Source: Ethanoligenens harbinense YUAN-3 (GTDB taxonomy: Bacteria > Bacillota > Clostridia > Oscillospirales > Ethanoligenentaceae). From it: DNA of 64,000 nt. Location: positions 829,501 to 893,500 of the forward strand of contig NC_014828.1 in the NCBI RefSeq assembly GCF_000178115.2, in the 5' to 3' direction. Made by a program: the position numbers and the translations under genes. This document shows, piece by piece, positions 3-47,323 of the stretch; within the stretch, counting starts at the first letter, position 1; every line of letters starts with the position of its first letter. The notes beneath the pieces were generated by a model. That model was not told the DNA's origin. It worked only from the letters and a program-made list of their open reading frames with translations, and ran no database searches.

Positions 3-578
3 TTCCGGCAAAGCGGTTACACGCTTTGTATTGTGGACACGGCAGGAAACCATGCCGATCTCAACGATGATTATGCCTCCATCCAGTCTGAAATGAAAGC
101 GGTGGCTGCGCTGCTGGGTCACACCGTCCTGCGGGAATGCGCAGAGCGCGATTTTTACGACCGGCTGCCGGAGATCCGTAAAAAATTGGGCGACCGCGCC
201 GCTTTGCGCGCCGTTCACTTCTTCGGCGACGACCAGCGTGTTTTGAAAGAGGTGGACGCCCTGCGGACACAGAATTTTGCATCGTTTTTGGATTTGGTGG
301 CAAAGTCGGGACGCTCGTCTTTCCAGTGTCTGCAAAACGCTTACTCCATCCAGGAACCCAGGCAACAGGGCTTGCCGCTGGCGCTTGCCCTTTCGGAAAA
401 ACTGCTGGACGGAAAAGGCGCATGGCGTGTGCACGGCGGCGGATTTGCCGGTACGATCCAGGCGTTTGTGCCGAATGCGCTGGTGGATGCGTATGCTTTG
501 GAAATGAACCGCGTGTTTGGGGCGCGCGCGTGCTACCGGTTGCTGGTGCGGCCGACGGGAGCGACCCGCGTCTTATAA
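3..578 (+). CDS. galK: galactokinase, C-terminal part (cut by window start)
   Basis: GHMP-family galactokinase, which phosphorylates galactose to galactose-1-phosphate in the Leloir pathway. The reading frame is open from base 3, so the gene starts upstream and only the last 191 residues are visible. The segment at the window edge (GYTLCIVDTAGNHADL) resembles the central part of galactokinases, and WRVHGGGFAGTIQAFVP near the C-terminus is the typical glycine-rich GHMP motif 3. A GTG at 33 is internal, not the start. galT begins 69 bp after the stop and galE follows, which supports the assignment. The phosphate-binding motif 2 lies outside the window. Confidence 0.88.
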   Translation, partial: FRQSGYTLCIVDTAGNHADLNDDYASIQSEMKAVAALLGHTVLRECAERDFYDRLPEIRKKLGDRAALRAVHFFGDDQRVLKEVDALRTQNFASFLDLVAKSGRSSFQCLQNAYSIQEPRQQGLPLALALSEKLLDGKGAWRVHGGGFAGTIQAFVPNALVDAYALEMNRVFGARACYRLLVRPTGATRVL

Positions 579-647
579 AAAATTCACCCGACTGCCCTTG
601 CATGGGACGGCCGCTTCAACAAACAACTGCCGATTTGGGGGATTATT

Positions 648-1640
648 ATGGCTGAACTTCGCTGGCATCCGTTTATCCGCGACTGGGTGATGATCGCGTC
701 ATCCCGTCAGAACCGCCCGCAAATGCCGAAGGACTGGTGCCCGTTTTGCCCGGGTTCCGGAAAAGTACCCGATCATTACGACGTTCTAAAATACGACAAC
801 GATTTTCCTGCGCTTTCGCAGACGCCGCCGGAGCCGGATGATGTCGCCACCGATTTCTTTAAGGTGCGCCCGGCCTACGGCAAGTGTGAAGTCATCCTGT
901 ATTCGCCGGAGCACACCATCACGCTGCCGGAACTGCCGGTGCCGCATATCCGCAAACTGGTGGACCTCTGGGCGGAGCGGTATGACGCGCTGCGCCGGGA
1001 TGAGAAGATCAAATATGTTTTCATTTTTGAAAACCGCGGCGATGTGGTGGGTGTGACCATGCCGCATCCGCACGGGCAAATCTACGGGTACTCGGTCATT
1101 CCCAAAAAACTGCGGTTGGAGCTGGAGGCGAGCGAAGCCTACTACAACGAAAATGACCGCTGCCTGTTCTGTGACAGCCTGAAAGCAGAGCAGGATTTTC
1201 AAAAGCGCGTCATTTTTCAAAACGACCATTTTGTCTGCTTGCTGCCGTTTTATACGGAGTATCCATATGGCGTGTATGTCTACAGCAAACGCCACATCGG
1301 CGCCATCGCGGATTTCACGGGTGAGGAGCGTGACGCGCTGGCGGCTATGCTGAAAGAAACCACCGGAACGCTCGACAGCCTGTTTGGCTATAAGTTTCCA
1401 TATATGATGTGCATGCACAACGCGCCGGTCAATTCCGGCAATACCAGTGCGTATTACCATTTTCATATCGAATTTTTCCCGCCGATGCGCTCGGAAAAAA
1501 AGCAGAAGTTCAACGCTTCCAGCGAAACCGGCGCATGGGCGCACTGTAACCCGACTTGTCCCGAGGAAAAAGCGGAAGAACTGCGGCAGGCGCATGCGCG
1601 TTTTCTTGCATCCGCAGCCGGGCAGGCGGACAACCATTGA
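648..1640 (+). CDS. galT: galactose-1-phosphate uridylyltransferase
   Basis: Transfers UMP from UDP-glucose to galactose-1-phosphate, the second Leloir step. It is a HIT-superfamily enzyme of 330 residues, near the usual size of the class I family. The active-site motif HPHGQ is at residues 140-144, with H142 the expected uridylylated histidine. A CPFCPG cysteine pair lies near residue 31 and an ENRGD segment precedes the active site. A second zinc-type histidine pair (YYHFHIEF) is near residue 270. Its ATG lies 69 bp after galK, and galE begins 27 bp after its stop, so the three genes form an operon. Confidence 0.93.
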   Translation: MAELRWHPFIRDWVMIASSRQNRPQMPKDWCPFCPGSGKVPDHYDVLKYDNDFPALSQTPPEPDDVATDFFKVRPAYGKCEVILYSPEHTITLPELPVPHIRKLVDLWAERYDALRRDEKIKYVFIFENRGDVVGVTMPHPHGQIYGYSVIPKKLRLELEASEAYYNENDRCLFCDSLKAEQDFQKRVIFQNDHFVCLLPFYTEYPYGVYVYSKRHIGAIADFTGEERDALAAMLKETTGTLDSLFGYKFPYMMCMHNAPVNSGNTSAYYHFHIEFFPPMRSEKKQKFNASSETGAWAHCNPTCPEEKAEELRQAHARFLASAAGQADNH

Positions 1641-1667
1641 TCCGACCATAGAAGGAGGAACCGTGAC

Positions 1668-2699
1668 ATGCGTATATTGGTGACCGGAGGCGCGGGCTTC
1701 ATCGGCAGCCATACCTGTGTTGAACTGTTGCAGGGCGGGCACGAAGTCATCGTGCTGGACAATCTCTACAATAGCGCTGTGACTGCCCTGCGCCGCGTGG
1801 AAAAGATCACGGGCCGCAGTCTGACGTTTTGCAAAGGGGACGTGCGGGACGGTGCGCTTCTGAAAACCATTTTTGCCAGGCATGCCGTTGATGTGGTGAT
1901 CCATTTTGCGGCGCTCAAGGCTGTGGGCGAATCCGTACAGAAGCCTCTGGAGTATTATGACAACAACATCGGCGGCGTGGTGACGCTTTGCAAAGCCATG
2001 CGCGAAGCGGGCGTGCACAGTATCATTTTCAGCTCGTCCGCCACGGTGTACGGCGTGCCGGAAACGGTGCCTGTAAAAGAGGATTTCCCCTTATCCGCCA
2101 CCAGCCCTTATGGACGCACCAAACTGATGACGGAAGAAATACTGCGGGATGTTTTTGTGGCGGATAATCGCTTCAGCGTGGTTCTGCTGCGGTATTTCAA
2201 TCCCATCGGCGCGCATGAGAGCGGGCTCATCGGCGAATACCCCAAGGGCATTCCCAACAATCTTACGCCGTATATCGCACAGGTGGCCACCGGTAAACTA
2301 AAAGAATTGAAAGTGTTTGGAAATGACTATCCCACGCCGGACGGCACCGGAGTCCGAGACTATATCCATGTGGTGGATCTGGCGAAAGGACATGTCTGTG
2401 CGCTGAAAAAGGCATCGGAACCTGGCGTGCATATCTATAATCTCGGCACCGGTGTTGGATATAGCGTCCTGCAGGTCATTGCAGCGTTTGAAAAAGCGTG
2501 CGGCAAAACGATTCCCTATGTGTTTGCGCCCCGGCGGGCGGGCGACGTGGCGGAAAACTACGCCGACCCGTCCAAGGCCCTGCGCGAACTGGGCTGGAAG
2601 ACGACGAAAGGAATCGACGATATGTGCCGTGATTTGTGGAACTGGCAGTCCAAAAACCCGGATGGGTATCCGGTTGAAGACAAAACCGGCACGGAATAG
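1668..2699 (+). CDS. galE: UDP-glucose 4-epimerase (copy 1)
   Basis: Interconverts UDP-galactose and UDP-glucose with bound NAD, closing the Leloir pathway. It is an extended short-chain dehydrogenase of 343 residues. The NAD-binding motif TGGAGFIGS is at residues 6-14, the catalytic Ser is near 124 (FSSSATVYG), and the YxxxK pair is Y148/K152. The ATG follows GGAGGAACCGTGAC. It is the last gene of galK-galT-galE. A second, very similar galE lies on the minus strand at 49018-50040. The two proteins share long identical stretches, such as the segment around [17 protein letters not shown]. Confidence 0.95.
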   Translation: MRILVTGGAGFIGSHTCVELLQGGHEVIVLDNLYNSAVTALRRVEKITGRSLTFCKGDVRDGALLKTIFARHAVDVVIHFAALKAVGESVQKPLEYYDNNIGGVVTLCKAMREAGVHSIIFSSSATVYGVPETVPVKEDFPLSATSPYGRTKLMTEEILRDVFVADNRFSVVLLRYFNPIGAHESGLIGEYPKGIPNNLTPYIAQVATGKLKELKVFGNDYPTPDGTGVRDYIHVVDLAKGHVCALKKASEPGVHIYNLGTGVGYSVLQVIAAFEKACGKTIPYVFAPRRAGDVAENYADPSKALRELGWKTTKGIDDMCRDLWNWQSKNPDGYPVEDKTGTE

Positions 2700-25639: not shown

Positions 25640-25677
25640 ATGAATGATCTCTTTGCACTGCATATGAATCTACAGTA

Positions 25678-25772
25678 CAAACTGAGCAGGCGATGGATCC
25701 TTTTGGGGTCTGTGGGGCTGGGCCGCTTTGGCGGCAGCGGGTTTGCATCTTTGATCACACCTGCGGGACAGT
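25678..25772 (+). promoter_or_regulatory. NiCo (czcD-type) riboswitch aptamer
   Basis: Leader RNA sensing Ni2+/Co2+. It contains ACTGAGCAGGCGATGG at 25681, a GGGCCGC/GCGGCAGC hairpin in the middle, and TGCGGGACAGT at 25762-25772. These match the conserved parts of the NiCo riboswitch as I recall them, and the order of the four-way junction is kept. The ACTG at the start and the CAGT at the end form the closing stem P1. The 3' part overlaps the 5' arm of the terminator, so ligand binding should block termination. The downstream gene is a cation P-type ATPase, which fits. Confidence 0.85.
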
Positions 25773-25798
25773 GGTATGTTCCGCGGGTGTGATTTTTT
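25754..25798 (+). terminator. expression-platform terminator of the NiCo riboswitch
   Basis: ATCACACCTGCGGGA pairs with TCCGCGGGTGTGAT followed by TTTTTTAT. Its 5' arm includes the last conserved aptamer block (GCGGGACAGT), so folding of aptamer and terminator exclude each other. Confidence 0.85.
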
Positions 25799-34676: not shown

Positions 34677-35107
34677 AACAAAACCTCCAATAATCTACAC
34701 GAGTGAAATAAATGGTTGTTTGGAAAAGTTCAGCGTGTTTCGTGTATGAATATATGATAGCAAATATCCGGTCGGATAGGTAGATGTCATTTATCCAAAC
34801 TTTATTTTTGGATTTATGAAAATTACACATCAAAAAACATAGACTTTATATAAAACATTTAAATAAATCAAGGAATATTTGGACATTTTCGTAGAAAGGC
34901 TTAGGAGTGGGCGCGCATGGCGATATGGACAAAGCACACGGTATGCGCCTGGTTTCCGGAAATCCAAACCCTTCGATTTGTTGCAAAATGAAATGAAGTG
35001 TAAAATAGATGTTGAAAGTTTTTTCAAAATGGGATACTATATGGTTGCATTCTATAAAAAAATTGTGGAATCTGGCAGAATTTTGCTGTTGACAGAAAGG
35101 GGCCGTG
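34677..35107. other. AT-rich divergent intergenic region (msmX / pilus operon)
   Basis: 431 bp without a gene. It holds upstream DNA of msmX on the minus strand, with inverted repeats at 34766-34777 and 34793-34813 (ATCCAAA/TTTGGAT). A good plus-strand promoter for the pilus operon is at 35012-35040. It is clearly more A/T-rich than its surroundings. Confidence 0.6.
35012..35040 (+). promoter_or_regulatory. promoter of the plus-strand pilus operon
   Basis: TTGAAA (35012-35017), 17-bp spacer, TACTAT (35035-35040), about 70 bp before the prepilin peptidase start. Confidence 0.65.
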
Positions 35108-35866
35108 ATGGCGGGCTTGCTTGCTGTTTTTATGTTTCTATTCGGGCTTTGCATCGGCAGCTTTTTGAATGTGTGCATCTACCGCATCCCCAAAGGAGAA
35201 TCCATTGTATTCGGCCGGTCGCATTGCCCCGCTTGCGGTGCCGCCATCCAGAACCGCGACCTCGTTCCGGTTTTCAGCTGGCTGGCGCTTAAAGGCCGCT
35301 GCCGGAATTGCGGTGCGCGCATCCCCGTCCGCTACCCCGCGGTGGAGCTGCTGGGCGGGCTGCTCTTTCTGGCTGTTTATGGCGCGTATGGCTTGACACT
35401 TTCGGCGGCAGTCTATGCGGCTTTCATCTGCGCCCTTGTTGTGACCGCGTTCATTGATTACGACCAGTCCATTATACCGAACGGCATTGTGCTGTACATA
35501 TTGGCGGTGGGCGTGCCGGCCATATTTTTTACGCAGGGCACGGGCCTAATTGATCGGGTCATCGGTTTTTTTGCGGCCAGCGTGCCGCTGCTCATCGCGT
35601 ATTTTGTGACGCGGGGCGGACTGGGCCTCGGGGATGTCAAACTGATGGCGGCCGGGGGTTTTCTGCTGGGATGGAAGCTGATCCTGCTCTCGTTGGCGGT
35701 GGGAAGTATCGTGGGTGCGGTCGTGGGCGTTTCGCTTGTTTTGCGGGGACGAAAGTCCATGCGGTCGGCCGTCCCGTTCGGGCCGTTTCTGTCTTTGGGG
35801 ATGTGCTTTTCCGCGCTTTACGGCAATGCGGCGCTGCATGCGTATATCGGTCTGTTTGTCCGGTAG
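35108..35866 (+). CDS. pilD: prepilin peptidase (A24 family)
   Basis: Inner-membrane aspartic peptidase that cleaves prepilin leaders and N-methylates the new end. It has 252 residues. The N-terminal A24 domain has SFLNVCIYRIPKGES and the paired zinc cysteines CPAC and CRNCGARIPVRYP. The two active-site aspartates are in FIDYDQSIIP and GLGDVKLM. About seven TM segments are seen. The start is ATG 35108, with GTG directly before it at 35105. It is the first gene of the plus-strand pilus operon. Confidence 0.94.
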   Translation: MAGLLAVFMFLFGLCIGSFLNVCIYRIPKGESIVFGRSHCPACGAAIQNRDLVPVFSWLALKGRCRNCGARIPVRYPAVELLGGLLFLAVYGAYGLTLSAAVYAAFICALVVTAFIDYDQSIIPNGIVLYILAVGVPAIFFTQGTGLIDRVIGFFAASVPLLIAYFVTRGGLGLGDVKLMAAGGFLLGWKLILLSLAVGSIVGAVVGVSLVLRGRKSMRSAVPFGPFLSLGMCFSALYGNAALHAYIGLFVR

Positions 35867-35907: not shown

Positions 35908-37590
35908 ATGGCGATGAAAAATCTGCGCATAGGTGAAATGCTGCTGGAAGAAAACCTGATCACACAGGCACAGCTCGATGCCGCACTTGCACGCAAAAAA
36001 GAAGGGGACCACAACAAGCTGGGCGACATTCTGGTGGAAATGGGCAGTGTTTCGGAAAAGGAACTGACCCGAATGCTGGGCACGCGGCTGAAAGTGCCGG
36101 TCGTAGACTTGGTGGAGACGGGCATCGACCAGCATGTTCCAGACCTGATACCCGAGGAACTGGCTAAAAAATACATGGTCATTCCCATCGCGCAGGACGG
36201 ACAGATTCTCACGGTCGCCACCAGCGACCCGATGAATTTCTATGCCATCGATGACCTGCGGCTGGCCACTAATCTGGAAATCAAGCCGGTATTGGCCACA
36301 TCCACAGACATCAAAAACGCCATCAGCCATTATTACAGCCGCAAGCTGGCGGAAGAAGCGGCCGAGGACGTCAACCGTGAATTCAACTTCAACAGTATGG
36401 TTGATGCGGGCAATCTTTTGGGGGAGAAAGTTGATAATGCGCCGGTCGTCCGTCTGGTGGCCTCCATCATCCAGCAGGGTATCAAGTTTGGAGCCAGCGA
36501 TCTCCATATCGAGCCGTCGGAGACGGAAACCCGCATCCGCATGCGCGTGGACGGTGTGCTCAAGCCGCTGATGTCGCTGGCGGCCGCGGCGCATGCCTCG
36601 GTGGTGACCCGCATCAAGATCATGGGCAATATGAACATTGCCGAGCGGCGCGTGCCGCAGGACGGCAGGGTGGAGATCGTCATCGACGGCCGGCCGGTGG
36701 ACATGCGCCTCTCCGTGCTGCCCACCGTGACGGGTGAAAAAGTCGTCATTCGTATTCTGGGCGGACAGGACGCGGTGCGCTCGGTCAATGATCTGGGTCT
36801 GTCGGCGGAAAACCGCGCGCTGTTTGAAAAAATCACCCGCAGCCCCAATGGTATTCTGCTCGTTTCCGGCCCCACCGGCAGCGGCAAATCCACCACCCTT
36901 TACTCCATCCTCAACCAGCTCAACCAGCCCGGCGTCAACATCATTACGGTCGAGGACCCGGTCGAGTACCGCATGCCCGGTGCCAACCAGGTGCAGGTCA
37001 ACCCCAAAGCGGGCCTGACGTTTGCAAGCGGCCTGCGCTCCATCCTGCGGCAGGACCCCGATATCATCATGATCGGCGAGATCCGCGACGCCGAGACGGC
37101 GCAGATCGCCATCCGGGCGGCCATTACCGGCCATCTGGTGCTCTCCACCATCCACACCAACGACGCGGCCTCGACCGTTACCCGTCTGGTGGATATGGGC
37201 GTGGAGCCGTTTCTTGTGTCGTCCGCCGTCATCGGCATCATTGCGCAGCGGTTGGTGCGCAAGATCTGCCCACGCTGCAAGCAGCCGTATACTCCAAGCG
37301 ACAGTGAGTGCCGGCTGCTGGGCATCCCCGTGCAGAGCACGCTTTACCGGGGGACGGGCTGCAATTACTGCGACCACACCGGCTATAAGGGCCGCACCGC
37401 CATCCATGAGATTATGGCAATCAGCCATGACGTGCGTGAACTCATCGACAATGAAGCCGCCACCGACGAGATCCGCGCGCAGATCGTCCGCGACGGCACC
37501 ATCACGTTGCAGGAGTGCTGCAAGCAGCTGGTCTTAAACGGTGTGACCACCAGGGAAGAACTGCTGCGCGCCACCTACAGTATTGGGTGA
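35908..37590 (+). CDS. pilB: type IV pilus assembly ATPase PilB/GspE
   Basis: Cytoplasmic hexameric extension motor, 560 residues. The N-terminal MshEN-type domain starts at RIGEMLLEENLITQAQLDAA. Walker A is VSGPTGSGKSTTLYS, the Asp box VEDPVEY, Walker B DPDIIMIGEIRDAETA and the His box STIHTNDA. A tetracysteine zinc site (CPRCK and CNYCDHTGYKGRT) is near the C-terminus, as in extension ATPases and unlike PilT. It is 41 bp after pilD and 103 bp before pilT. Confidence 0.95.
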   Translation: MAMKNLRIGEMLLEENLITQAQLDAALARKKEGDHNKLGDILVEMGSVSEKELTRMLGTRLKVPVVDLVETGIDQHVPDLIPEELAKKYMVIPIAQDGQILTVATSDPMNFYAIDDLRLATNLEIKPVLATSTDIKNAISHYYSRKLAEEAAEDVNREFNFNSMVDAGNLLGEKVDNAPVVRLVASIIQQGIKFGASDLHIEPSETETRIRMRVDGVLKPLMSLAAAAHASVVTRIKIMGNMNIAERRVPQDGRVEIVIDGRPVDMRLSVLPTVTGEKVVIRILGGQDAVRSVNDLGLSAENRALFEKITRSPNGILLVSGPTGSGKSTTLYSILNQLNQPGVNIITVEDPVEYRMPGANQVQVNPKAGLTFASGLRSILRQDPDIIMIGEIRDAETAQIAIRAAITGHLVLSTIHTNDAASTVTRLVDMGVEPFLVSSAVIGIIAQRLVRKICPRCKQPYTPSDSECRLLGIPVQSTLYRGTGCNYCDHTGYKGRTAIHEIMAISHDVRELIDNEAATDEIRAQIVRDGTITLQECCKQLVLNGVTTREELLRATYSIG

Positions 37591-37693
37591 GCGGTTTTCA
37601 TACCCTCTCGTATCCAGTGTACGCGTCTGAAGCTCCGGAATGCCGGAGCGGGAAAAAGGAAACGACAGTGAAGAAGAGAAAGAGGAATGCAGC

Positions 37694-38755
37694 ATGAAAC
37701 GGGTCGATGAATTGCTTTTTAAAGCGATGGACTGCAAAAGCTCCGATCTGCACCTCACGGTGGGGGTGCCTCCCATGGTGCGGATCAACGGCCTGCTCCG
37801 GCCACTGGAAGGCTATGATGTTCTGCTGCCCGAAGACACGCAGGAAATTGCCGCTTCCATGCTTACGGAAGCGCAAAACCAAGAGGTGGAAACAAAAGGC
37901 CAAACGGATTTTTCGTATGTGATACAGGATGTCGGACGTTTCCGTGTCAATATCTACAAGCAGCGGCGCAGCTATTCCATCGCTATCCGCGTGCTGGCGG
38001 CAACGATGCCGACCATTGAAAGCCTGGGCCTGCCGGGCACGCTCAAGGAGCTGGCGCTCAGGCCGCGCGGCCTTGTGCTCGTTACCGGGCCGACGGGCAG
38101 CGGCAAGTCCACCACGCTGGCGGCCATGGTGGATTATATCAATATGAACCGGCGCTGCCATGTGCTGACCATCGAAGACCCGATCGAATACCTGCACAAG
38201 CACAAGAACAGCATCGTCAACCAGCGCGAGGTCGGCGACGATACCGATTCTTTTGCCGGGGCGCTGCGCTCCGCTTTGCGTGAGGACCCGGATGTCATTC
38301 TCGTGGGCGAGATGCGCGATCTGGAGACCATCTCCACTGCCATCTCCGCTGCCGAAACCGGCCACTTCGTGCTTTCCACGCTGCACACCAACGGCGCCGC
38401 GCAGACGGTCGACCGCATCATCGATATGTTTCCGCCCTTCCAGCAGCAACAGATACGCGTACAGCTTTCCTCGGTGCTGCAGGCGGTCATCACGCAGCAA
38501 CTGCTGCCCAACGTGCTGCACGACGGGCGGGTGGTCGCCATGGAGCTGATGCTCTGCAACGACGCTGTGCGCAACATGATACGCGACAACAAGTGCCACC
38601 AGATCGTTACCGCGTTGCAGACCGGCATCAAGCAAGGCATGATGCCCATGGATTATTCGCTCAGCCGCTTGGTGAAAGCAAACCAGATCACGCAGGCGGA
38701 AGCGATGTCGCACAGCATGGATAAGGAAACGCTGCGTCGCTACCTGACCATGTGA
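37694..38755 (+). CDS. pilT: type IV pilus retraction ATPase PilT
   Basis: Hexameric retraction motor, 353 residues. The N-terminus has the PilT SSDLHLTVGVPPMVRINGLL start. Walker A is VTGPTGSGKSTTLAA, the Asp box TIEDPIEYLH, Walker B DPDVILVGEMRD and the His box STLHTNGA. There is no zinc tetracysteine. AEAMSHSMDKETLRRYL ends it in place of the usual retraction AIRLIR helix region. ATG 37694 is chosen at MKRVDELLF. Its presence predicts twitching, DNA uptake or dynamic adhesion. Confidence 0.95.
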   Translation: MKRVDELLFKAMDCKSSDLHLTVGVPPMVRINGLLRPLEGYDVLLPEDTQEIAASMLTEAQNQEVETKGQTDFSYVIQDVGRFRVNIYKQRRSYSIAIRVLAATMPTIESLGLPGTLKELALRPRGLVLVTGPTGSGKSTTLAAMVDYINMNRRCHVLTIEDPIEYLHKHKNSIVNQREVGDDTDSFAGALRSALREDPDVILVGEMRDLETISTAISAAETGHFVLSTLHTNGAAQTVDRIIDMFPPFQQQQIRVQLSSVLQAVITQQLLPNVLHDGRVVAMELMLCNDAVRNMIRDNKCHQIVTALQTGIKQGMMPMDYSLSRLVKANQITQAEAMSHSMDKETLRRYLTM

Positions 38756-38869
38756 ATCGTTTCAAAAAAAAAATTTTGAAACGTGTCTGGAAATCCGGTT
38801 TGGCGGTATAAAGAAAACAGAAACATAAGAATTGTGCTGAAAACGGTCTATGAAATGGGAGGGTACCAT

Positions 38870-39310
38870 ATGATTAAGTCACTTGTGAAAACACGTGAAA
38901 AACTCCGTAAGAACAAAAAAGGCTTTACCCTGATCGAACTCCTCGTCGTCATCGCCATCCTCGCCGTCCTCGCGGCGATCCTCATCCCTGTCGTTGGTGG
39001 GTTCATTGGCAGTGCCCGGAAAAATGCCGCGACTGCGGATGCCCGTTCCGTTTATTCCGCAACCACCACTTATCTCGCGCAAAACACGGGAGATTTCAGC
39101 GGCGGTTATAATGCGACTACTAACGGCATCAGTGATGCTAATCTCGAACAGTATCTGGGTGGCACTCCGACTACTTGGAACTTCAAAATTACAGCTATCG
39201 ATATAACATATGATTCCACAACGGGGACATCAACTGTGCATAGTGTCACTATCACAGAACCCCAAACTGGTGGTACTTCTTACACGTTTGATGGTGTGCA
39301 CATCTCGTAA
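38870..39310 (+). CDS. type IV prepilin, major pilin candidate 1
   Basis: A 146-residue prepilin. The positively charged leader ends KKG before FTLIELLVVIAILAVLAAIL, giving a mature N-terminal Phe with the conserved Glu5. A short soluble head of about 100 residues follows. AGAGGG-type GGGAGGGTACCAT precedes ATG 38870. It lies 115 bp after pilT, and a terminator follows it, which could make this the main product of the operon's 3' part. It resembles the second pilin strongly at the N-terminus and weakly in the head. Confidence 0.92.
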   Translation: MIKSLVKTREKLRKNKKGFTLIELLVVIAILAVLAAILIPVVGGFIGSARKNAATADARSVYSATTTYLAQNTGDFSGGYNATTNGISDANLEQYLGGTPTTWNFKITAIDITYDSTTGTSTVHSVTITEPQTGGTSYTFDGVHIS

Positions 39311-39338
39311 TCTGAGGGTAGCTTTTAAAGTAAGTTTA

Positions 39339-39370
39339 CAAAAACCGCCGGTTTGGCCGGCGGCTTTTTG
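39339..39370 (+). terminator. terminator between the two prepilin genes
   Basis: CAAAAACCGCCGG pairs with CCGGCGGCTTTTTG. It suggests that the second prepilin is expressed by read-through or from its own promoter. Confidence 0.8.
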
Positions 39371-39431
39371 TTACCATTTTGAGCGACTTCGTGCATTGAA
39401 TTGGAATGGGATTGAAAGATGGGGGCTACAT

Positions 39432-39845
39432 ATGGTCAAGGCACTTGCGGAAACCCATGGAAAACTACGCAGGAGCAAAAAAGGTTTTACTCTCATCGAG
39501 CTTCTCGTCGTCCTCGCTATCCTCACCATTCTCGTGGCAATTTTGATTCCTGTTGTAGCTGGATTTATCCATAAAGCAAAGCAGAGCGCGTCTAACACTG
39601 ATGCGCACACGGTTTTTACCGCTGCAGCAGCGTATGTGGCGCTTCACGATGATACGACCTTTACAAGTTTGGGTAGTGCCGCCTCGACGGGTAAAGTTCC
39701 GATCACCACCGCCGATCTTTCAAATTATATTGGAAGCAATTACAGCTTTACCATTACAAAAATCACGATTAACGGCGGCGTGGTGGCTGGCGTGCAAGTC
39801 TCGGAGTTTGGCGGGACATTCACCGGCACCTATGGAACCGTGTAG
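39432..39845 (+). CDS. type IV prepilin, major pilin candidate 2
   Basis: A 137-residue prepilin. The leader (MVKALAETHGKLRRSKKG) is followed by FTLIELLVVLAILTILVAIL with Glu5. The N-terminal 45 residues are close to the first pilin, while the head differs and is rich in Ser/Thr/Gly. It probably arose by duplication. ATG 39432 follows GGGGGCTACAT. A strong bidirectional terminator lies after it, towards the convergent minus-strand operon. Confidence 0.92.
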   Translation: MVKALAETHGKLRRSKKGFTLIELLVVLAILTILVAILIPVVAGFIHKAKQSASNTDAHTVFTAAAAYVALHDDTTFTSLGSAASTGKVPITTADLSNYIGSNYSFTITKITINGGVVAGVQVSEFGGTFTGTYGTV

Positions 39846-39867
39846 GGGACTGCCCTGCGGCGCAAAA

Positions 39868-39907
39868 ACGAACCGGCTCCGCAACGCGGAGCCGGTTCGT
39901 TTATTTT
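39868..39907. terminator. bidirectional terminator between the convergent pilus operons
   Basis: Perfect 15-bp arms ACGAACCGGCTCCGC and its complement around AAC, with T-runs on both sides. It overlaps the stop codon of the minus-strand sigma factor gene. Confidence 0.9.
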
Positions 39908-40671
39908 CCCTTTATCATCTTGAATGATTTCGATGAATCAATAATATGGAAGCTTGGCCCGCCGAGCAGGGTGGCCAGCGATTTGAGCCCCGCTGATTTC
40001 ACACGGCTGACCTTGCGCTGGTTCAGCCCCAGCTCGGCGGCGGTCTGTTCCTGCGTAAGCCCGCGGAAGAACAAGGCGGAAATCACGCGGCGCTGTAGTT
40101 CGTCGAGTTTTTCCATTGCCTGCGCGAGCGCCAGCCTGTCTTCCAGCGGCAGGTGAAATGGCTGCATCTGTGTGGAACTGATCTTCTCAATATCCAAGTC
40201 GGAAAAGGCGACCAGCCCCGCCCGCAGCACCTCTCGCACGCCCTCGGGCCGGATGCCGAGTTCGTCAGCCAGCTTGTCTTCTTCCGGCGGCGGTTCACCG
40301 TCCTCCGCCGTGCGTTCCAGCACTTTCTCCGCCTGTTCCTGCAATCGGTTGAGACAGCCCGGGCGACGATAGACCCGTTCCTTGCGCGCAAAATGCCGGA
40401 TTTCCCCGATGATGCAATGGGACGCCCATGTGGAGAACAGCACACGCCCGTCATAACTTTTTATGGCTTTGACAAGGCCCAGCATGCCGGTTTGCGCCGT
40501 ATCCTCAAGCGGGCAGCCCACGCCGTACAGCGCGGCAAAATGATAGACCAAGGGCCTGCCAGCCAAAACGACCGCCTCCAGCGCGGCGTCGCTGGGGGTG
40601 GCGGTATAGCAGGCGTAGGCTTCGTTGATATCGGGGCCGGATGAGGTTTGCAGTTTGGCTGTTTGTTCCAT
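39901..40671 (-). CDS. SigB/F/G-type sigma factor at the end of the pilus operon
   Basis: A 256-residue sigma-70 family factor. Region 2 is visible as LVYHFAALYGVGCPLEDTAQ, then GMLGLVKAIKSYD and STWASHCIIGEIRHFARKER. Region 3 lies at about 115-165. The region 4 helix-turn-helix is RGLTQEQTAAELGLNQRKVSRV. The pattern is nearest to SigB/SigF/SigG, but CIIGEIRHFARKER is not identical to known sporulation factors. It starts 33 bp after the minor prepilin gene on the same strand, so it looks co-transcribed with pilus genes. No anti-sigma gene is seen nearby. Confidence 0.85.
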   Translation of the reverse strand: MEQTAKLQTSSGPDINEAYACYTATPSDAALEAVVLAGRPLVYHFAALYGVGCPLEDTAQTGMLGLVKAIKSYDGRVLFSTWASHCIIGEIRHFARKERVYRRPGCLNRLQEQAEKVLERTAEDGEPPPEEDKLADELGIRPEGVREVLRAGLVAFSDLDIEKISSTQMQPFHLPLEDRLALAQAMEKLDELQRRVISALFFRGLTQEQTAAELGLNQRKVSRVKSAGLKSLATLLGGPSFHIIDSSKSFKMIKGK

Positions 40672-40704: not shown

Positions 40705-41295
40705 TCATGGCGAGGTATAAGGCGTAAAACCGATCAAGGCGCCCCCGTTTGGATTGCCACCGGTGTTGTCCGTGATGGACGCGCTGGTGAACCCCCTGCC
40801 AATATTGTTGATGGGAATGTCGGTGTTGAGCGTGTAGTTGTCATTTGCGTTGGCATTGTTATAAATGGAAATTGTAACATGGAGCACGGCCGCTGAGGTT
40901 TCTTTGAAGCTCACGGTCACGGTGTATCCTTTAAAGTAGCCTTTTTGAAAAGCAATTTCCGGTGCGCCAGACTTTGGATTGATAATCAAGGCGGCGTTTG
41001 CGGTTCCGCCGGATGGCGTAGTGTCAAAATACAGGTAGCCATTCGTGCAACTGGAAAGGAATGAGGGGTCGTTATAAATGGTCAGGCTGGTGCTGTTCTG
41101 CACCGTGTTTTTGATTTTTTGCTCAAGCAGCAGCGCCATGGTGTGTTCATCAAACTTGTAGTTCGTGTTTTTGACGATATTGTTGCCGAACACCATGATG
41201 CCGCCGATGGCCACGAGCACAATGGAGGTGATGGCCAGCACGACCACCAGCTCAATCAGCGTAAACCCTTGCCTGTTTTTTAAGTGTTTTTTCAT
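40705..41295 (-). CDS. minor prepilin (PilW-like)
   Basis: About 196 residues. The leader MKKHLKNRQG is followed by FTLIELVVVLAITSIVLVAIG with Glu5. The head is long and Asn/Ser/Thr-rich. The start could also be GTG 41304. Minor pilins of this sort prime pilus assembly. It lies 18 bp after the PilV-like gene and 33 bp before the sigma factor gene. Confidence 0.87.
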   Translation of the reverse strand: MKKHLKNRQGFTLIELVVVLAITSIVLVAIGGIMVFGNNIVKNTNYKFDEHTMALLLEQKIKNTVQNSTSLTIYNDPSFLSSCTNGYLYFDTTPSGGTANAALIINPKSGAPEIAFQKGYFKGYTVTVSFKETSAAVLHVTISIYNNANANDNYTLNTDIPINNIGRGFTSASITDNTGGNPNGGALIGFTPYTSP

Positions 41296-41313
41296 CACGC
41301 TCACACTTTCGGT

Positions 41314-41691
41314 TCAGTTGGGGGTGAAGTTCCAGTAGGTGACGGAGCCGCCCGGCGTGTCCGACGTCGTGCCGGTTTCGTAGGTGCCGGTCACGGTGGA
41401 GGCCGCGCCGCCGATGGTAACGATGACATCGCCGCCCGTACTGCTTACGGATGTGGTGGCCGCATCCCCTGCGGCGACACTCGCAGTGCCGGTTGCGCCC
41501 GCAGCCTTGAGTGAATTTTTGCTGCGCGGCATGGTCTTGCTCATGATGTTCAGCCCGACGACCAGCGCAGTGCCGATGAGCACTACCACGATGGTAAGCA
41601 GCGCTAAAGCTACGATGACCTCGACCAGCGTCATGCCCTTTTGTTCGCGCAGGCAAATGGGGTGCTTTTTCAAGTTATGCAGCTTTTTCAT
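41314..41691 (-). CDS. minor prepilin (PilV/PilI-like)
   Basis: A 125-residue prepilin-like protein. The leader ends EQKG before MTLVEVIVALALLTIVVVLI, with Glu5 present. The head is short, Ser/Thr/Gly-rich and lacks cysteines. Its ATG overlaps the stop of the PilX-like gene by 4 bp, so the two are translationally coupled. Confidence 0.87.
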   Translation of the reverse strand: MKKLHNLKKHPICLREQKGMTLVEVIVALALLTIVVVLIGTALVVGLNIMSKTMPRSKNSLKAAGATGTASVAAGDAATTSVSSTGGDVIVTIGGAASTVTGTYETGTTSDTPGGSVTYWNFTPN

Positions 41692-43316
41692 TTGTCAGCC
41701 CACCCATCCAAAGTCCATGAGCCAGTGCCACCACCGCCGGAACCGGAGCCTGATGCCATTCCATTTAGAGGTGTTCCACTTAAATCCGGGGGAGCAATGT
41801 ATTGCAATTTGACATTATTGCTAATGATTATTGACTGCGCGCATACACTTCCAAAAAGTTTATAAGTGTATGTATTGGCCCCACCGGCTGTGAAGGTGCC
41901 ATTTGGAAGATAAATATATCCGTCAAATCTTGTATCACTTGATAAAGTGACGCTCTGGCCGGAACTGCCGCTTTCGCCTATGATAAATATTTCCGGCTGT
42001 GCATTTGCATTATTATTACTGTCATTATTGCTCATTATCAATGCACAGTTTCCATTTGTAATGTTCAAAGAAGTGTTATTACCTCTTAAATATACAAAAA
42101 GTTTGTTAGGGCCTGTTACAATGAGGTGAATATTGCTGGGAACCGTTTGCGCTGAATTAATGACGACATTGATATCATGAGCAATAGTATTAAATTTTAT
42201 AACATAGTTACTGTATCCCTTTATTTTTGAATCAAAACTGAGAACACAGTCATCATTTATGGAATAAGTGTTGCCTGAGCTAAATGTGCTCGTTCCAATA
42301 TTTATTGAAGTATAACCAGATGGTGCGGCAATGCTGTTGAAAGTCGGGGTGTCAAAGTCAATAACTACCGGAGATACTGTCGCGTTTTCAGTTGCCATGC
42401 CACCAACGAAAGTGGAGATGTTGCCCCAAGTATAAGTGTAAGTTCCCCCGGTGGTCAGATTACCATTGATCCTATTCGATCCGCCGGAAAAACTGGCATT
42501 CCCACCAAAGGTCGCATTACCAGTTATATTGCCGTTGGAAAGTGTACCGCTTTGGCCAATGTACACGCTACCGTTTACCTTTCCACTTCCGGACATAATT
42601 AAATCATTTGTTGCATAGACATCCCCGTTTGTGATTCTACCGCTACCAGTTATTGTAACCGTACCCTTTGCCTTCACACCAGTTAATCCGCTCCCGTCAC
42701 CATCTAAAGTGACGTCACCATTTGAGAGTAAGGTTCCGTTTATAACAGAACCATTCCCGTAGGAAAATGAACCGTTTGCCACAATATTACCCGTTAATTG
42801 ACTTTGACCTAATGTGGCCGAGCCATTTACATAAATAAGATTATCAAATGGATATATAGGTAAAGGAGCACTACTTGATTTCATATATGCGATAGCGGTG
42901 GCTGTGATGCCATGGACGGTCGCGGTGGAGGCCACTTTCAGCGATGTCGCACTTATTTTCGTAATAGTAATGGGGCAGCTTTGCACATTTTTGAGAGCGG
43001 TGGCAGGAGTAGTGGTGGGTAATTTGAATGTGGGTGTGGCGCTTAGCGTGTTTCCAGTTGTCAAAGCATTGACACTATCCCGTAAGTTCGTGGTATTTGG
43101 ATCGCTTATATATTTCATTGTAGCGCTCACGGCAGATTTTGCCGCAAAATACGCCTGTTGCTGGTAGATCTGCGCCTGTGTCTGGCTGCCGGATGCAAGC
43201 GAAAGGCTGATCACGGCGGCGCCGAGCACGACGAACACAACAAACACGATCAGCACGGCAATGAGCGCACTGCCGGTCTGCTCTCGATATTTCCGATACA
43301 TTCGTTTGATGTTCAT
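41688..43316 (-). CDS. PilX/GspK-like prepilin with large beta-repeat domain
   Basis: About 542 residues. The N-terminus REQTG is followed by SALIAVLIVFVVFVVLGAAV, a prepilin-like helix without Glu5, as in GspK/PilX proteins. Residues about 165-290 hold short glycine- and asparagine-rich repeats (such as GNIVANGSFSYGNGSVINGT), like a bactofilin or beta-helix stack. The C-terminus is a Gly/Ser tail (SGSGSGGGGTGSW). It is much more A/T-rich than its neighbours, which suggests fast evolution or recent gain. A tip adhesin role is possible. GGGGGCGG precedes ATG 43316. Confidence 0.82.
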   Translation of the reverse strand: MNIKRMYRKYREQTGSALIAVLIVFVVFVVLGAAVISLSLASGSQTQAQIYQQQAYFAAKSAVSATMKYISDPNTTNLRDSVNALTTGNTLSATPTFKLPTTTPATALKNVQSCPITITKISATSLKVASTATVHGITATAIAYMKSSSAPLPIYPFDNLIYVNGSATLGQSQLTGNIVANGSFSYGNGSVINGTLLSNGDVTLDGDGSGLTGVKAKGTVTITGSGRITNGDVYATNDLIMSGSGKVNGSVYIGQSGTLSNGNITGNATFGGNASFSGGSNRINGNLTTGGTYTYTWGNISTFVGGMATENATVSPVVIDFDTPTFNSIAAPSGYTSINIGTSTFSSGNTYSINDDCVLSFDSKIKGYSNYVIKFNTIAHDINVVINSAQTVPSNIHLIVTGPNKLFVYLRGNNTSLNITNGNCALIMSNNDSNNNANAQPEIFIIGESGSSGQSVTLSSDTRFDGYIYLPNGTFTAGGANTYTYKLFGSVCAQSIIISNNVKLQYIAPPDLSGTPLNGMASGSGSGGGGTGSWTLDGWADK

Positions 43317-43351
43317 GGCTATCCGCCCCCTGGTCGAGGTCAACCCGATTG

Positions 43352-44164
43352 TCACATGATGTCGCTCTTGCCGGCGGGCGCAGGCAAGGTCCAGGCAAAA
43401 ACGGTGTCCGTATCGTCCGGTTTTTCAGCGCCGTAGCACCGCAGCACCACCGTGGCGTTTTGCGGCGTGATATCCAGCTTTGTAACCTGCACGGTCTTGC
43501 CGCTGTTTTTGATGGTGTCGAGCAACGCCTTGAACCCGCCGTAGTTGCCGGTGAGCTGAAGTGTGACATCCTCACTCAGTAAAGAACCGGTGGCACTGGA
43601 GCTGGAACCGGTGCTTTTAGTGGTTTGCGATGCATTGCTGTTTTGCGCAGTGGCGGATGTGCTTTTCGATGCGGTGCTGTTGCCGGCTGTGCCGCTTGAA
43701 ACCGTGTGGCCTTTAAATTCTTCGGCATAGGTCTTCAACAGATAGGTGAGCGTATTTGCCGTTGTCACCTGCGAGCCGCTGCCGGACGACTGCTGGGTTG
43801 TGGTCGTCTGGCCTATATCGGTGACGGCGGGGGTGGAAAATTTGATGGAATTTACGGACAATCCGTTTGCCGCAGTCAACCCGAGCAGCCAAAGGTTCAA
43901 CTGCTCGTTGTCTACCGACGGCAGGATGCTCGCAGCCGCGGTATCGGCTGCCGTCGCCGCCTTTTTGACGGTGCTGTCCAGTTTGGATGCCGTCGCCAGG
44001 TTCGTCCGGGCAATGTCCTGCTTGGTCTGCATGTCGAGCAGGGTTTGGGTATGTACCGAGAGGGTTGTGAATGCCGGTGTGATCAGGAGCTTGATGCCCA
44101 CGAACAGCACCACCACGATGCCCAGCAGAAACACCAGAATCTTCTCACGCAGATTCAGCGTCAT
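43352..44164 (-). CDS. PilO-like pilus alignment protein
   Basis: A 270-residue bitopic protein. One N-terminal TM (ILVFLLGIVVVLFVGIKLLI) is followed by a coiled coil (about 38-75) and a Ser/Thr-rich insertion (about 155-195). The C-terminal ferredoxin-like region (GNYGGFKALLDTIKNSGKTVQVTKLDI) is typical of PilO. It pairs with PilN and PilM to link the motor to the pilus. It overlaps pilN by 4 bp. Confidence 0.82.
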   Translation of the reverse strand: MTLNLREKILVFLLGIVVVLFVGIKLLITPAFTTLSVHTQTLLDMQTKQDIARTNLATASKLDSTVKKAATAADTAAASILPSVDNEQLNLWLLGLTAANGLSVNSIKFSTPAVTDIGQTTTTQQSSGSGSQVTTANTLTYLLKTYAEEFKGHTVSSGTAGNSTASKSTSATAQNSNASQTTKSTGSSSSATGSLLSEDVTLQLTGNYGGFKALLDTIKNSGKTVQVTKLDITPQNATVVLRCYGAEKPDDTDTVFAWTLPAPAGKSDIM

Positions 44165-44718
44165 TGCCCTCCGCCCCCTTTCAGCGTGCAGGTGATGGTA
44201 AAGCTGCAGGAAGTCCCGCCCTTTACCACGCCGTCGTAGGTGGCATAGTCAAATTTTCCGCTTGCTTTGAGTGCGTTGGTGAAGACGGCGGCCGATTTTT
44301 CATCGGTCGCGGCGCATGTCAGCTTGATGGCCATATCCGTGTAGTTCAGGTCGCTCACGGTCACATCCGCCGGCTGAGCTTTCGCAATGGCGCCAAGCAG
44401 ATCGGAGTCCACGACCGGCAGGGAGGTGAACGCTTTGGCGTTTTTGGCCGCGAGCGCTTCATATTGTTTCAGATAGGCGGTTTTTCGGTTTGCCTCGCTC
44501 ACGGCCGAGGCCACGGAGGTGACATTGCGCTGTGCCAGAAAACTGCTGATGGAGCGGTTCTGCGCCTGCACGGTGGCGTCGTCAATCTTGATGAACGCGA
44601 ACACCCCGGCCATGACCACGACGCAGCTCAGGAGCACCGATAGCCCGGCAATGGTCGCCTTGTCATAGCCCGCGGCGCCGGAATGATAGACTGAGAAAAA
44701 ATTGATGTCTCTTTGCAT
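44161..44718 (-). CDS. PilN-like pilus assembly protein
   Basis: A 185-residue bitopic protein. The short cytoplasmic N-terminus (RDINFFSVYHSGAAGYDKAT) contains the INFF motif by which PilN binds PilM. A single TM (about 25-45), a coiled coil and a small C-terminal domain follow. It sits between pilM and pilO in the usual order, and overlaps pilO by 4 bp. Confidence 0.85.
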   Translation of the reverse strand: MQRDINFFSVYHSGAAGYDKATIAGLSVLLSCVVVMAGVFAFIKIDDATVQAQNRSISSFLAQRNVTSVASAVSEANRKTAYLKQYEALAAKNAKAFTSLPVVDSDLLGAIAKAQPADVTVSDLNYTDMAIKLTCAATDEKSAAVFTNALKASGKFDYATYDGVVKGGTSCSFTITCTLKGGGGQ

Positions 44719-44729
44719 GTCCCGTCACC

Positions 44730-45740
44730 TCACAGTCTGATGAGTGCGCCAATCGCATTGGCGTATTCTGCTATATTGATGTCGCCCGCTTTCACCTTTG
44801 AGACGCTCCGCACGGTCTGAACCGGCAGTCCCGTTGTCGTGCCCAGAGCGTCTTCCAGCCCTTTGATTTCGGAAAGGCTGCCGTAGAGGTAAACGCAGGC
44901 AACTGGGTTTGCCGAGTTGCGGCGTAATTGGAACTGGTTCATTTTCTGCAATTCTTCGGCCAACTGGCCGACGTATTGGCGTGCCGCACCGCTGAGAATG
45001 GAGTCCAGCCGGATTTCATCCGCTGTGATGTCCAGCCCGCTGAGGGAATGGCTTTCGGTATTGCCCAGTCCGGCATTCTCCACGACGAGACGGAATTCCT
45101 CGGAAGAGACGGGAGCCAGGCGGGAAAATGCCCGCTGTCCTTCGCTGAAGAGATGGATCTCAGCCGTGTCGTGCTCAATGCCGACAAACAGCGCCGATTT
45201 TCCGCCGACGGCCGTGCCGTTTATATTCTCGCCGAGGAACAGTTTTTCCACCGAGTTGGCATGTGTGTCCAGCGCCACCGGCTTAAACCGGACGCTGCGG
45301 AAAATCGAATAGTATTCGTCCACCGTTTCTTTGGGAATGGCATATGCCCACACGTTGTTTATGGACGATTTGGCCTTGGCGTCGTCTCCTGTCAGGGAAT
45401 ATTCATAAACGAAATCGGTCGTGTCGCTCACGACCTGTTGCAATTCATTACGCACCATCAGGGTGAGTTCCCTTGGTTTGGCAGGCGGCAGTTCCAGCCT
45501 GCGCGACAGGATGGAACTGCTGCTGATGGTCATTACCATGTTGGTTGATCTGAAATTTTTCAGTGCGTGCAGTTTGCTGAGAGCCATTACAAAGGCGGCA
45601 TGGTTTCTGACGATTCCGTCTTCCACGGTTCCTTCCGGAAGCCGCATTTTCCCGCTGTTGACAACGGTTACGGTCCCTCCGTTCGCGTTGCCCTCGACGG
45701 CATAAAGAAACTGGCTGCTCACATCCACTGAAAACAACAT
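44730..45740 (-). CDS. pilM: PilM-like actin-fold pilus protein
   Basis: A 336-residue FtsA/actin-fold cytoplasmic protein. The start LFSVDVSSQFLYAVEG, the middle region ELPPAKPRELTLMVRNELQQ and the end AEYANAIGALIRL fit PilM. It binds the N-terminus of PilN at the membrane. It is 11 bp before pilN and 35 bp after pilC. Confidence 0.84.
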   Translation of the reverse strand: MLFSVDVSSQFLYAVEGNANGGTVTVVNSGKMRLPEGTVEDGIVRNHAAFVMALSKLHALKNFRSTNMVMTISSSSILSRRLELPPAKPRELTLMVRNELQQVVSDTTDFVYEYSLTGDDAKAKSSINNVWAYAIPKETVDEYYSIFRSVRFKPVALDTHANSVEKLFLGENINGTAVGGKSALFVGIEHDTAEIHLFSEGQRAFSRLAPVSSEEFRLVVENAGLGNTESHSLSGLDITADEIRLDSILSGAARQYVGQLAEELQKMNQFQLRRNSANPVACVYLYGSLSEIKGLEDALGTTTGLPVQTVRSVSKVKAGDINIAEYANAIGALIRL

Positions 45741-45775: not shown

Positions 45776-46987
45776 TCACGAAGTACTGCCGATTGAACCG
45801 TAAACGCTGTAGATGGGTGTGATGATGGAAACGATGATAAAGCCCACGATCAAAGCAAGCACCACGATCATGATGGGCTCGATAAGCGAAACCATTTGCT
45901 GGATGGCTGTATCCGCCTCGTCATCGTAAAAGGCGGCGGTTTTGTTCAAAATCTCATCCATATTACCGGATTCTTCGCCGATGTTCAGCATGGAACACAG
46001 CATCACAGGGAAAATCTCCAGTTTGCGTATGGAACCCGAAATGGAGACGCCCCGGCGCACATCTTCAGTCGCCTGTAACAGGCCGGCCTTTACATAGGTG
46101 TTTTTGATTACCCGCGTTACGATCTCGATAGACTGGATAATGGGCAGGCCGCTGCTGAACAGGGAAGCCAGCGTTCTGGCAAACCGCGCCGATTCCAGGG
46201 TGAGCAGGATTTTACCGAAAATGGGAAAACGCAGCTTCATGCGGTCCCAGCCCATGCGCGTTTTTTCATTTCTCATCAACAGCACCCACGCAAAGTAGAC
46301 CGCAATGACCCCAATGATAAAAAGGTACCAATAGCCGGTCATCGCGTTGCTGATGCTTAACAGAATCTTGGTAGTGGTGGGAATTTTGCCGCCGAACTGA
46401 TCGAACATTTTCAGAAAGGTCGGCATAATGAACGTGAGCAGGAAAATGACCACCGCGACCGACATGCAGACAAGAAAGATCGGATACACCATGGCCTGCT
46501 TCACCTTGTTCTGCAGCTTGTTGTCTTTTTCATACTGTGTGGCCATCCGGTTCATGACGGTGTCGAGCGTACCGCTGGCTTCGCCCGCCGCCACCATGTT
46601 GAGCAGCAGTTCCGGAAAGGCGTCCTGCAGAGCCATCGCCTTTGAAAGCGACTCGCCCCGCTGCACCGCTTCGTAGACACCCAGAACGATTGCCTTGATA
46701 TTTTTTTTGGTCGTCTGCTGATAAAGAATATCCAGACATTTGATGACCGAAAGACCGGAGTTGAGCATGGTGCTGAACTGCCTGCAGAAAATGCTCAGAT
46801 CCTTAAGCTTGATTTTTTTGCTGCCGAAACGGATCTCTTTCTGTTGCAGTCCGGTTTCATGCACGCTGACGCAAAATTGGCCGTGTGACCGGAGTGTGCG
46901 ATAAAAGGACTCGATGTTGTCCGCTTCCAGAACGCCATTGAATGTTTTGCCGCTTATGTCTTTGGAAACATATTGGAATTCCGGCAT
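45776..46987 (-). CDS. pilC: type IV pilus inner-membrane platform protein PilC/GspF
   Basis: A 403-residue polytopic platform protein. Two T2SSF domains (about 65-190 and 270-390) are visible, with FCRQFSTMLNSGLSVIKCLD and FARTLASLFSSGLPIIQSIE as their paired signatures. Three TM regions are present, the last IMIVVLALIVGFIIVSIITPI. ATG 46987 (MPEFQYVSKD) is chosen over the longer frame. It is the first gene of the minus-strand pilus operon, with an A/T-rich promoter region upstream. Confidence 0.93.
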   Translation of the reverse strand: MPEFQYVSKDISGKTFNGVLEADNIESFYRTLRSHGQFCVSVHETGLQQKEIRFGSKKIKLKDLSIFCRQFSTMLNSGLSVIKCLDILYQQTTKKNIKAIVLGVYEAVQRGESLSKAMALQDAFPELLLNMVAAGEASGTLDTVMNRMATQYEKDNKLQNKVKQAMVYPIFLVCMSVAVVIFLLTFIMPTFLKMFDQFGGKIPTTTKILLSISNAMTGYWYLFIIGVIAVYFAWVLLMRNEKTRMGWDRMKLRFPIFGKILLTLESARFARTLASLFSSGLPIIQSIEIVTRVIKNTYVKAGLLQATEDVRRGVSISGSIRKLEIFPVMLCSMLNIGEESGNMDEILNKTAAFYDDEADTAIQQMVSLIEPIMIVVLALIVGFIIVSIITPIYSVYGSIGSTS

Positions 46988-47323
46988 TTTCTTCACCCTT
47001 TTCACTGAGGTCTCGTTAAAAACAGAACGGCACAATTATACTATAATTATATAGAATTCAAGGGAAATAGCAATAGATTATCAAAAACTTACAAAAATAT
47101 ATAAGAATATACAAAGCAGATTTGACAAAATGATGGTTCCAATAAGACGAATACATGGTTGGATTTGGATGACTCATCGGAACGCCTGTTTTGTTAACGG
47201 CGATGCGGTGGAGAACGGTGTGAGACCCGCTGCTTGGGCATCAATATGTATACAAGCGGGTTCGCCGGTAAAAAGGAGCGCGGCGGTTGCGGCAATCAGT
47301 CCATAGTGCTTCCACCGGTGCGT
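46988..47323. other. A/T-rich intergenic region upstream of the minus-strand pilus operon
   Basis: 336 bp with no gene. A minus-strand promoter candidate lies at 47046-47073 (TTGCTA, 16 bp, TATAAT), with an overlapping second TATAAT nearer the gene. I see nothing else identifiable; the 47200-47323 end is the tail after fetB. Confidence 0.55.
47046..47073 (-). promoter_or_regulatory. promoter of the minus-strand pilus operon
   Basis: Minus-strand TTGCTA (47068-47073), 16-bp spacer, TATAAT (47046-47051), about 60 bp before pilC. Confidence 0.55.

Follow-up and report, generated by a model that had tools for sequence, protein, structure and literature searches.

In many Gram-negative bacteria pilin genes are under the control of sigma-54, and FliA, which is made with the flagellar machine, switches on the filament (flagellin) gene. 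The locus described here resembles the flagellar case in that a sigma factor made with a machine is proposed to turn on the filament gene; it differs in that another organelle is concerned and that FliA is a separate gene in the same genome. Among type IV pilus systems, the group 3 sigma factor SigF of Synechocystis is described as transcribing pilA1 directly, both in vivo and in vitro, and its deletion as removing the pili (PMC2758279), and where mutations in sigF suppress a prepilin-peptidase mutant, they are reported to lower pilA1 mRNA (PMC8546353). The likeness lies in an alternative sigma factor acting on a pilin gene, as is predicted here. Unlike our sigma gene, SigF is given no operon linkage in the parts of these reports considered (PMC2758279, PMC8546353); the comparison of the two covers this arrangement and the match of the window protein to the SigF model given below. 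For Rubrobacter, the type IV pilus cluster is described as containing three predicted WhiG promoters whose starts were mapped, with RsiG, an anti-sigma factor that depends on c-di-GMP, keeping WhiG in check (PMC8325347). This is again an alternative sigma factor with promoters in a Gram-positive type IV pilus cluster, although WhiG as described there differs from our factor in belonging to the flagellar clade, in its promoter (-35 TAAA, -10 GCCGATAA) and in having a known anti-sigma factor. Given Synechocystis SigF and, probably, Rubrobacter WhiG, the making of pilin by an alternative sigma factor is already known. What appears to be new is a separate clade of clostridial sigma factors carried in the pilus operon with a predicted promoter of its own; no report of a clostridial pilus-operon sigma factor was found in the open-licence literature searched.

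The window, by which we mean the whole stretch of 64,000 nucleotides analysed, covers positions 829,501-893,500 of the single-contig genome of Ethanoligenens harbinense YUAN-3 (3,008,576 bases). It contains a type IV pilus locus (Table 1) with a gene for a sigma factor of 256 amino acids, which belongs to the sigma-70 family with regions 2 and 4 above the Pfam cut-offs (Sigma70_r2, E 2.7e-11, 43.5 bits against 24; Sigma70_r4, E 1.2e-9, 38 bits against 24.1); its predicted structure is of low confidence (pLDDT 56.5, pTM 0.41). Upstream of it on the same strand lie pilC, pilM, pilN, the pilO-position gene, a large protein and two prepilins, and the facing strand carries pilD, pilB, pilT, pilA1 and pilA2. 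The initial annotation placed the sigma gene 33 bp behind a minor prepilin gene, with its end in a shared terminator, and both details are accurate: 33 bp separate it from the prepilin gene at 40705-41304, and its stop codon falls inside a hairpin that is common to the convergent pilA2. The accompanying remark that no anti-sigma partner was visible also stands. The operon contains no anti-sigma gene, no FlgM-like partner adjoins the sigma gene, and the one strong match to the SpoIIAB-type family PF13581 in the genome (70.6 bits, in a short frame) lies directly upstream of the SigF gene instead, the nine other matches being weaker and found in longer frames (426 to 550 residues). No known RNA families were found at the pilus cluster. 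Apart from the candidate promoter of the pilC-sigma operon, pilD also has a sigma-A-like site (TTGAAA-17-TACTAT, 35012-35040); such sites commonly arise by chance, 19 having been found in the region against 10.9 expected.

Table 1. Features of the pilus locus in window coordinates. The start codon of pilA1 was picked from the reading frame and the ribosome site.
Feature	Position	Strand	Evidence
pilD, prepilin peptidase	35105..35866	+	Pfam Peptidase_A24 and A24_N_bact
pilB, ATPase	35908..37590	+	named from translation
pilT, ATPase	37640..38755	+	named from translation
palindrome GTTTCAAAA-N6-TTTTGAAAC, possible operator	38759..38782	.	touches the -35; one occurrence genome-wide
predicted sigma promoter: -35 GTGTCT, spacer 16, -10 GGTATAA	38783..38811	+	sole perfect match in the window; matrix rank 1
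pilA1, pilin gene, predicted target	38870..39310	+	Pfam N_methyl on ORF 38783-39310
pilA2, second pilin gene, without promoter	39432..39845	+	prepilin motif in ORF 39210-39845
terminator hairpin between pilA2 and sigma gene	39866..39902	.	17-pair stem
pilus-linked sigma gene	39901..40671	-	sigma-70 regions 2 and 4 by Pfam; member of the 12-gene clade linked to pili or comM
minor prepilin gene	40705..41304	-	Pfam N_methyl
minor prepilin gene	41314..41691	-	Pfam N_methyl
large pilus-operon protein, PilX-like position	41688..43355	-	without Pfam match
pilO-position gene	43352..44164	-	T2SSM match under cut-off
pilN	44161..44718	-	Pfam PilN
pilM	44730..45740	-	Pfam PilM_2
pilC	45776..47035	-	Pfam T2SSF
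sigma-A-like promoter candidate of the pilC-sigma operon, TTGCTA-16-TATAAT	47046..47073	-	10/12 consensus matches

A two-sequence profile run against 394 genomes of the window's order gave 517 bits for the window protein, 440 bits for its counterpart in UBA1320 and 110 bits for the next best match. A scan of named genome contigs likewise returned only 'Ruminococcaceae bacterium UBA1320', a family-mate whose protein shares 47% identity with ours, and the sigma factors listed in a plasmid search reached about 33% identity at most. Across the class, seven of 391 genomes, including that of the window, matched at E <= 1e-31, with 195-235 bits for the genes of G399, G598 (two genes), G620, G653 and G719. 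We left G131 (110 bits) and G702 (134 bits) out of the clade count, and also G637 (137 bits), taken as SigF from its STAS-like and SpoIIAB-like neighbours, which were named from their translations. An eight-sequence profile then gave five clear matches in 33 genomes of one further order, adding G770 and G768, and four in 30 genomes of another, adding G788 and G789. The resulting 12 genes from 11 genomes, which keep sigma regions 2 and 4, group in a single clade with support of 100/100 against 21 other sigma factors; in trees with only two clade members, AU tests had rejected none of three placements. The window factor thus belongs to its own clade of pilus-linked sigma factors, distinct from SigF, SigG and FliA. 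The window and UBA1320 proteins (the latter at L078 1957-2658) also carry a C-terminal tail, SFH..D...SFK.I, past region 4, which the proteins from other orders do not have.

The closest sequence families are the sporulation factors SigF and SigG together with SigB, so that the label "SigB/F/G-type" given at the outset fits as far as the nearest models go. It applies only loosely, since the best NCBIfam model, TIGR02980 (SigB/SigF/SigG), scores 102.9 bits, under half of the curated cut-off of 234.35, which places the protein outside that subfamily. A search for sigma region 2 gives 11 matches in this genome. Besides the window factor, these correspond by NCBIfam, in some cases under the curated cut-offs, to SigG, SigF, FliA, SigK, SigE, a SigH-like and three ECF-like factors, and the eleventh is RpoD, judged by its sequence. 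Orthology to sporulation SigF can be rejected, as the genome has a separate SigF gene with a PF13581 gene upstream and the window factor falls outside it in its own clade; SigG is rejected on the same grounds of a separate gene and clade, and no SpoIIAB-like gene stands beside our sigma gene. The phylogenetic placement therefore agrees with the earlier view that this is not one of the known sporulation sigma factors. A FliA/WhiG identity is rejected at 48.2 bits against a cut-off of 189.6, with FliA encoded elsewhere in the genome. PRK07408, the NCBIfam SigF model that we take to be the cyanobacterial one, scores 93.1 bits against a cut-off of 261, the tree being one without cyanobacterial sequences. 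Region 3, whose absence defines ECF factors, stays under the threshold in our protein, at 21.4 bits against a cut-off of 25.3, and has no match in the clade members of L179 and L206. In UBA1320 and in G768 (L205 10066-10761), which belong to different branches, it is clearly shortened or scrambled. In other sigma factors region 3 touches the extended -10; because it is shortened in UBA1320 and G768, it may be dispensable in this clade.

The genomic setting links the clade to pili. Eight of the 12 genes are part of a pilus operon: two close it and six stand between pilC and pilM, with the remaining four beside a comM-like gene. In UBA1320 the sigma gene comes after the last minor prepilin gene and is convergent with a pilin gene, as in the window, and the large pilus-operon protein has a counterpart with a conserved end; the pilM-pilN-pilO half of this operon sits on a separate contig. 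The sigma genes of G719, G399, G620, G768, G770 and one G598 copy lie between pilC and pilM, followed by pilN, pilO and pilB, and are tightly packed, with 1-3 bases from pilC to sigma, and with sigma and pilM anywhere between overlapping by 4 bases and standing 23 bases apart. The second G598 copy, G653, G788 and G789 form the comM-linked group (comM being named from translation), in two loci of which a dprA-like gene, also named from translation, lies about 8 kb away; G788 is the sole one of the four with a pilin gene, which is divergent and next to sigma. The window gene therefore has both the clade membership and the pilus linkage by which we define the proposed pilus-linked sigma clade. 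The recurrence of the operon-end position in another genus of the family, and the occurrence of relatives within pilus operons from two further orders, take the arrangement beyond chance and support the initial annotation in calling this a pilus-linked sigma factor. A sigma gene as a general feature of pilus loci can be rejected, since a sigma ORF occurs in none of 39 pilM regions from other genomes of the window's order. These regions, together with one from the operon of UBA1320, were picked for longer matches among the 109 of 394 genomes that match PF11104; several of the 39 are on short contigs, and 32 include a PilC homologue.

A survey for shared motifs uncovered a common promoter core, TGTCT-N16/17-GGTATAA, which stands before a pilin gene both in the window and in five further genomes with the sigma gene. 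Comparison of the upstream regions gave GTGTCT-N16/17-GGTATAA before pilA of G399, G620 and G719 and before pilA1 of the window, and the same core with a different first base in G768 and G788. The predicted -10 resembles what we take to be typical -10 elements of SigB/F/G-type sigma factors, which fits the models closest to the protein. The perfect form occurs once in the window and in none of 100 shuffles. With a matrix trained without the clade being tested, the pilin site ranks first in the window, L178, L179, L180, L205 and L206, which cover three families in three orders; in the window, the pilA1 site scores 21.4 with the core-only matrix trained on other clades and ranks first of 128,000 positions, and the best site upstream of pilA2 ranks 586. 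With a first matrix that included flanking letters, the pilA1 site (16.10) had been level with a site upstream of pilC (47128, minus strand; 16.09). The site of UBA1320 (L078) is degraded, with three mismatches and rank 2 of 15,046 under a matrix trained on all sites, and is overlapped by what by eye is a sigma-A-like TTGAAA-17-TACAAT. The single prepilin of L204, a protein other than the major pilin, came out at rank 24; L181 offered none for scoring, and the contigs of G770 and of the G598 operon copy end short of the major pilin.

Control loci behave differently. The core at one mismatch or fewer is found near a prepilin gene in six of eight sigma loci (all except L078 and L204) and in none of the 39 pilM loci without sigma. 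Likewise, among 58 control prepilin genes from 29 of these 39 loci none has a first-ranking site and one ranks within the first five, so that first-ranking sites number 6/8 in sigma loci and 0/29 in prepilin-holding control loci (Fisher p 1.2e-5), where the six are not independent because four come from one genus. Genome-wide, the strict pattern gave nine hits in seven sigma-bearing genomes against six for a reversed control, so that the signal rests on place and not on number: four of the nine are pilA sites. In the window genome the three hits are pilA1, one within a phage-like gene and a third whose 27 letters are identical to those of the phage-gene hit. Of the others, one lies within an ORF of G719, and those of UBA1320 and G653 are opposite ORFs.

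We consider it probable, at nearly 80%, that the factor is a dedicated type IV pilus sigma that transcribes pilA1, a reading drawn from gene order and promoter conservation; the pilin gene just across the terminator is its likely target. In the proposed sequence of events, the machine operon pilC-pilM-pilN-pilO-prepilins-sigma would be read from a sigma-A-type promoter, and its last product, the alternative sigma factor, would join RNA polymerase, recognise TGTCT-N16-GGTATAA before pilA1 and then transcribe this gene. The filament protein would thereby be made in cells that are building the assembly machine, much as FliA links the flagellar machine and flagellin. The initial annotation had suggested that this could be a feedback factor coupling pilus assembly to a gene set, such as competence or surface growth. 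As the predicted target is the adjacent pilin gene and not an outside gene set, the arrangement looks more like a relay from machine to filament. The AT-rich palindrome that touches the predicted -35 may add a second control on pilA1. Some observations speak against this reading: the closest relative that shares the gene order, UBA1320, retains just the degraded site; four of the 12 clade genes are found outside pilus operons, and of these only the G788 gene adjoins a pilin gene; and across whole genomes the strict pattern does not exceed its reversed control in frequency. A sigma factor in the pilus operon together with a readable pilin promoter would provide a direct handle on the timing of clostridial pilus making, and a pilus sigma would be a case of a machine-then-filament gene order outside flagella.

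The same observations could be accommodated by a wider regulon that includes surface growth, adhesins or competence and of which pilA is one member, which we regard as a possibility of some weight although the less probable reading. The four clade genes beside a comM-like gene, with the dprA-like gene near two of them, and the presence of comEC in the window genome would suit such a regulon, as would G788, where a second promoter-core site (L206 2196, minus strand) precedes a thioester adhesin domain gene (445-1953, minus strand). It is set against the strict-pattern hits of the window genome, which are confined to pilA1, the phage-like gene and the site with the identical 27 letters, with none shown at a competence gene. 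In G788 itself, the sigma factor may drive a surface adhesin too. That the conserved site is instead a weak sigma-A promoter or belongs to another activator, with the sigma factor acting elsewhere, seems unlikely to us. GGTATAA does contain TATAA, which is near a sigma-A -10 and lies 18 from GTGTCT, and the palindrome touching the window site would suit another activator; GTGTCT, however, agrees with TTGACA at just three of six positions, and the core is conserved in three sigma-bearing families yet absent near the 58 prepilin genes of loci without sigma.

The gene evolves fast, with 47% identity to its UBA1320 counterpart, and region 3 is shortened in UBA1320 and G768; it might therefore also be read as a paralogue in decay, or a mere passenger, that plays no part in the pilus. 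We hold this to be very improbable, since all 12 frames are open at 231 to 257 residues, regions 2 and 4 are retained, and the pilus linkage and the promoter are conserved. As to how the proposed pilus sigma might be regulated, one could imagine a flagellum-like checkpoint in which a part of the machine, for example the cytoplasmic PilM or the PilC platform, holds the factor, produced alongside pilC and pilM, inactive and releases it on assembly, so that pilin would be transcribed only once a machine is ready. The tight pilC-sigma-pilM packing in other orders and the lack of an adjacent anti-sigma gene would fit such a device, which we nevertheless judge quite unlikely.

Several further features were observed in the window and its genome. 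SigG, SigK, SigE, SigF and a SigH-like factor are all present (loci L002-L005 and L008), although the species is not known to sporulate. A NiCo riboswitch lies at 25672-25773 of the window (plus strand, 77 bits), and RAGATH-28 RNA occurs twice in the genome, at L187 2432-2517 beside phage-like genes and at L190 513-597.
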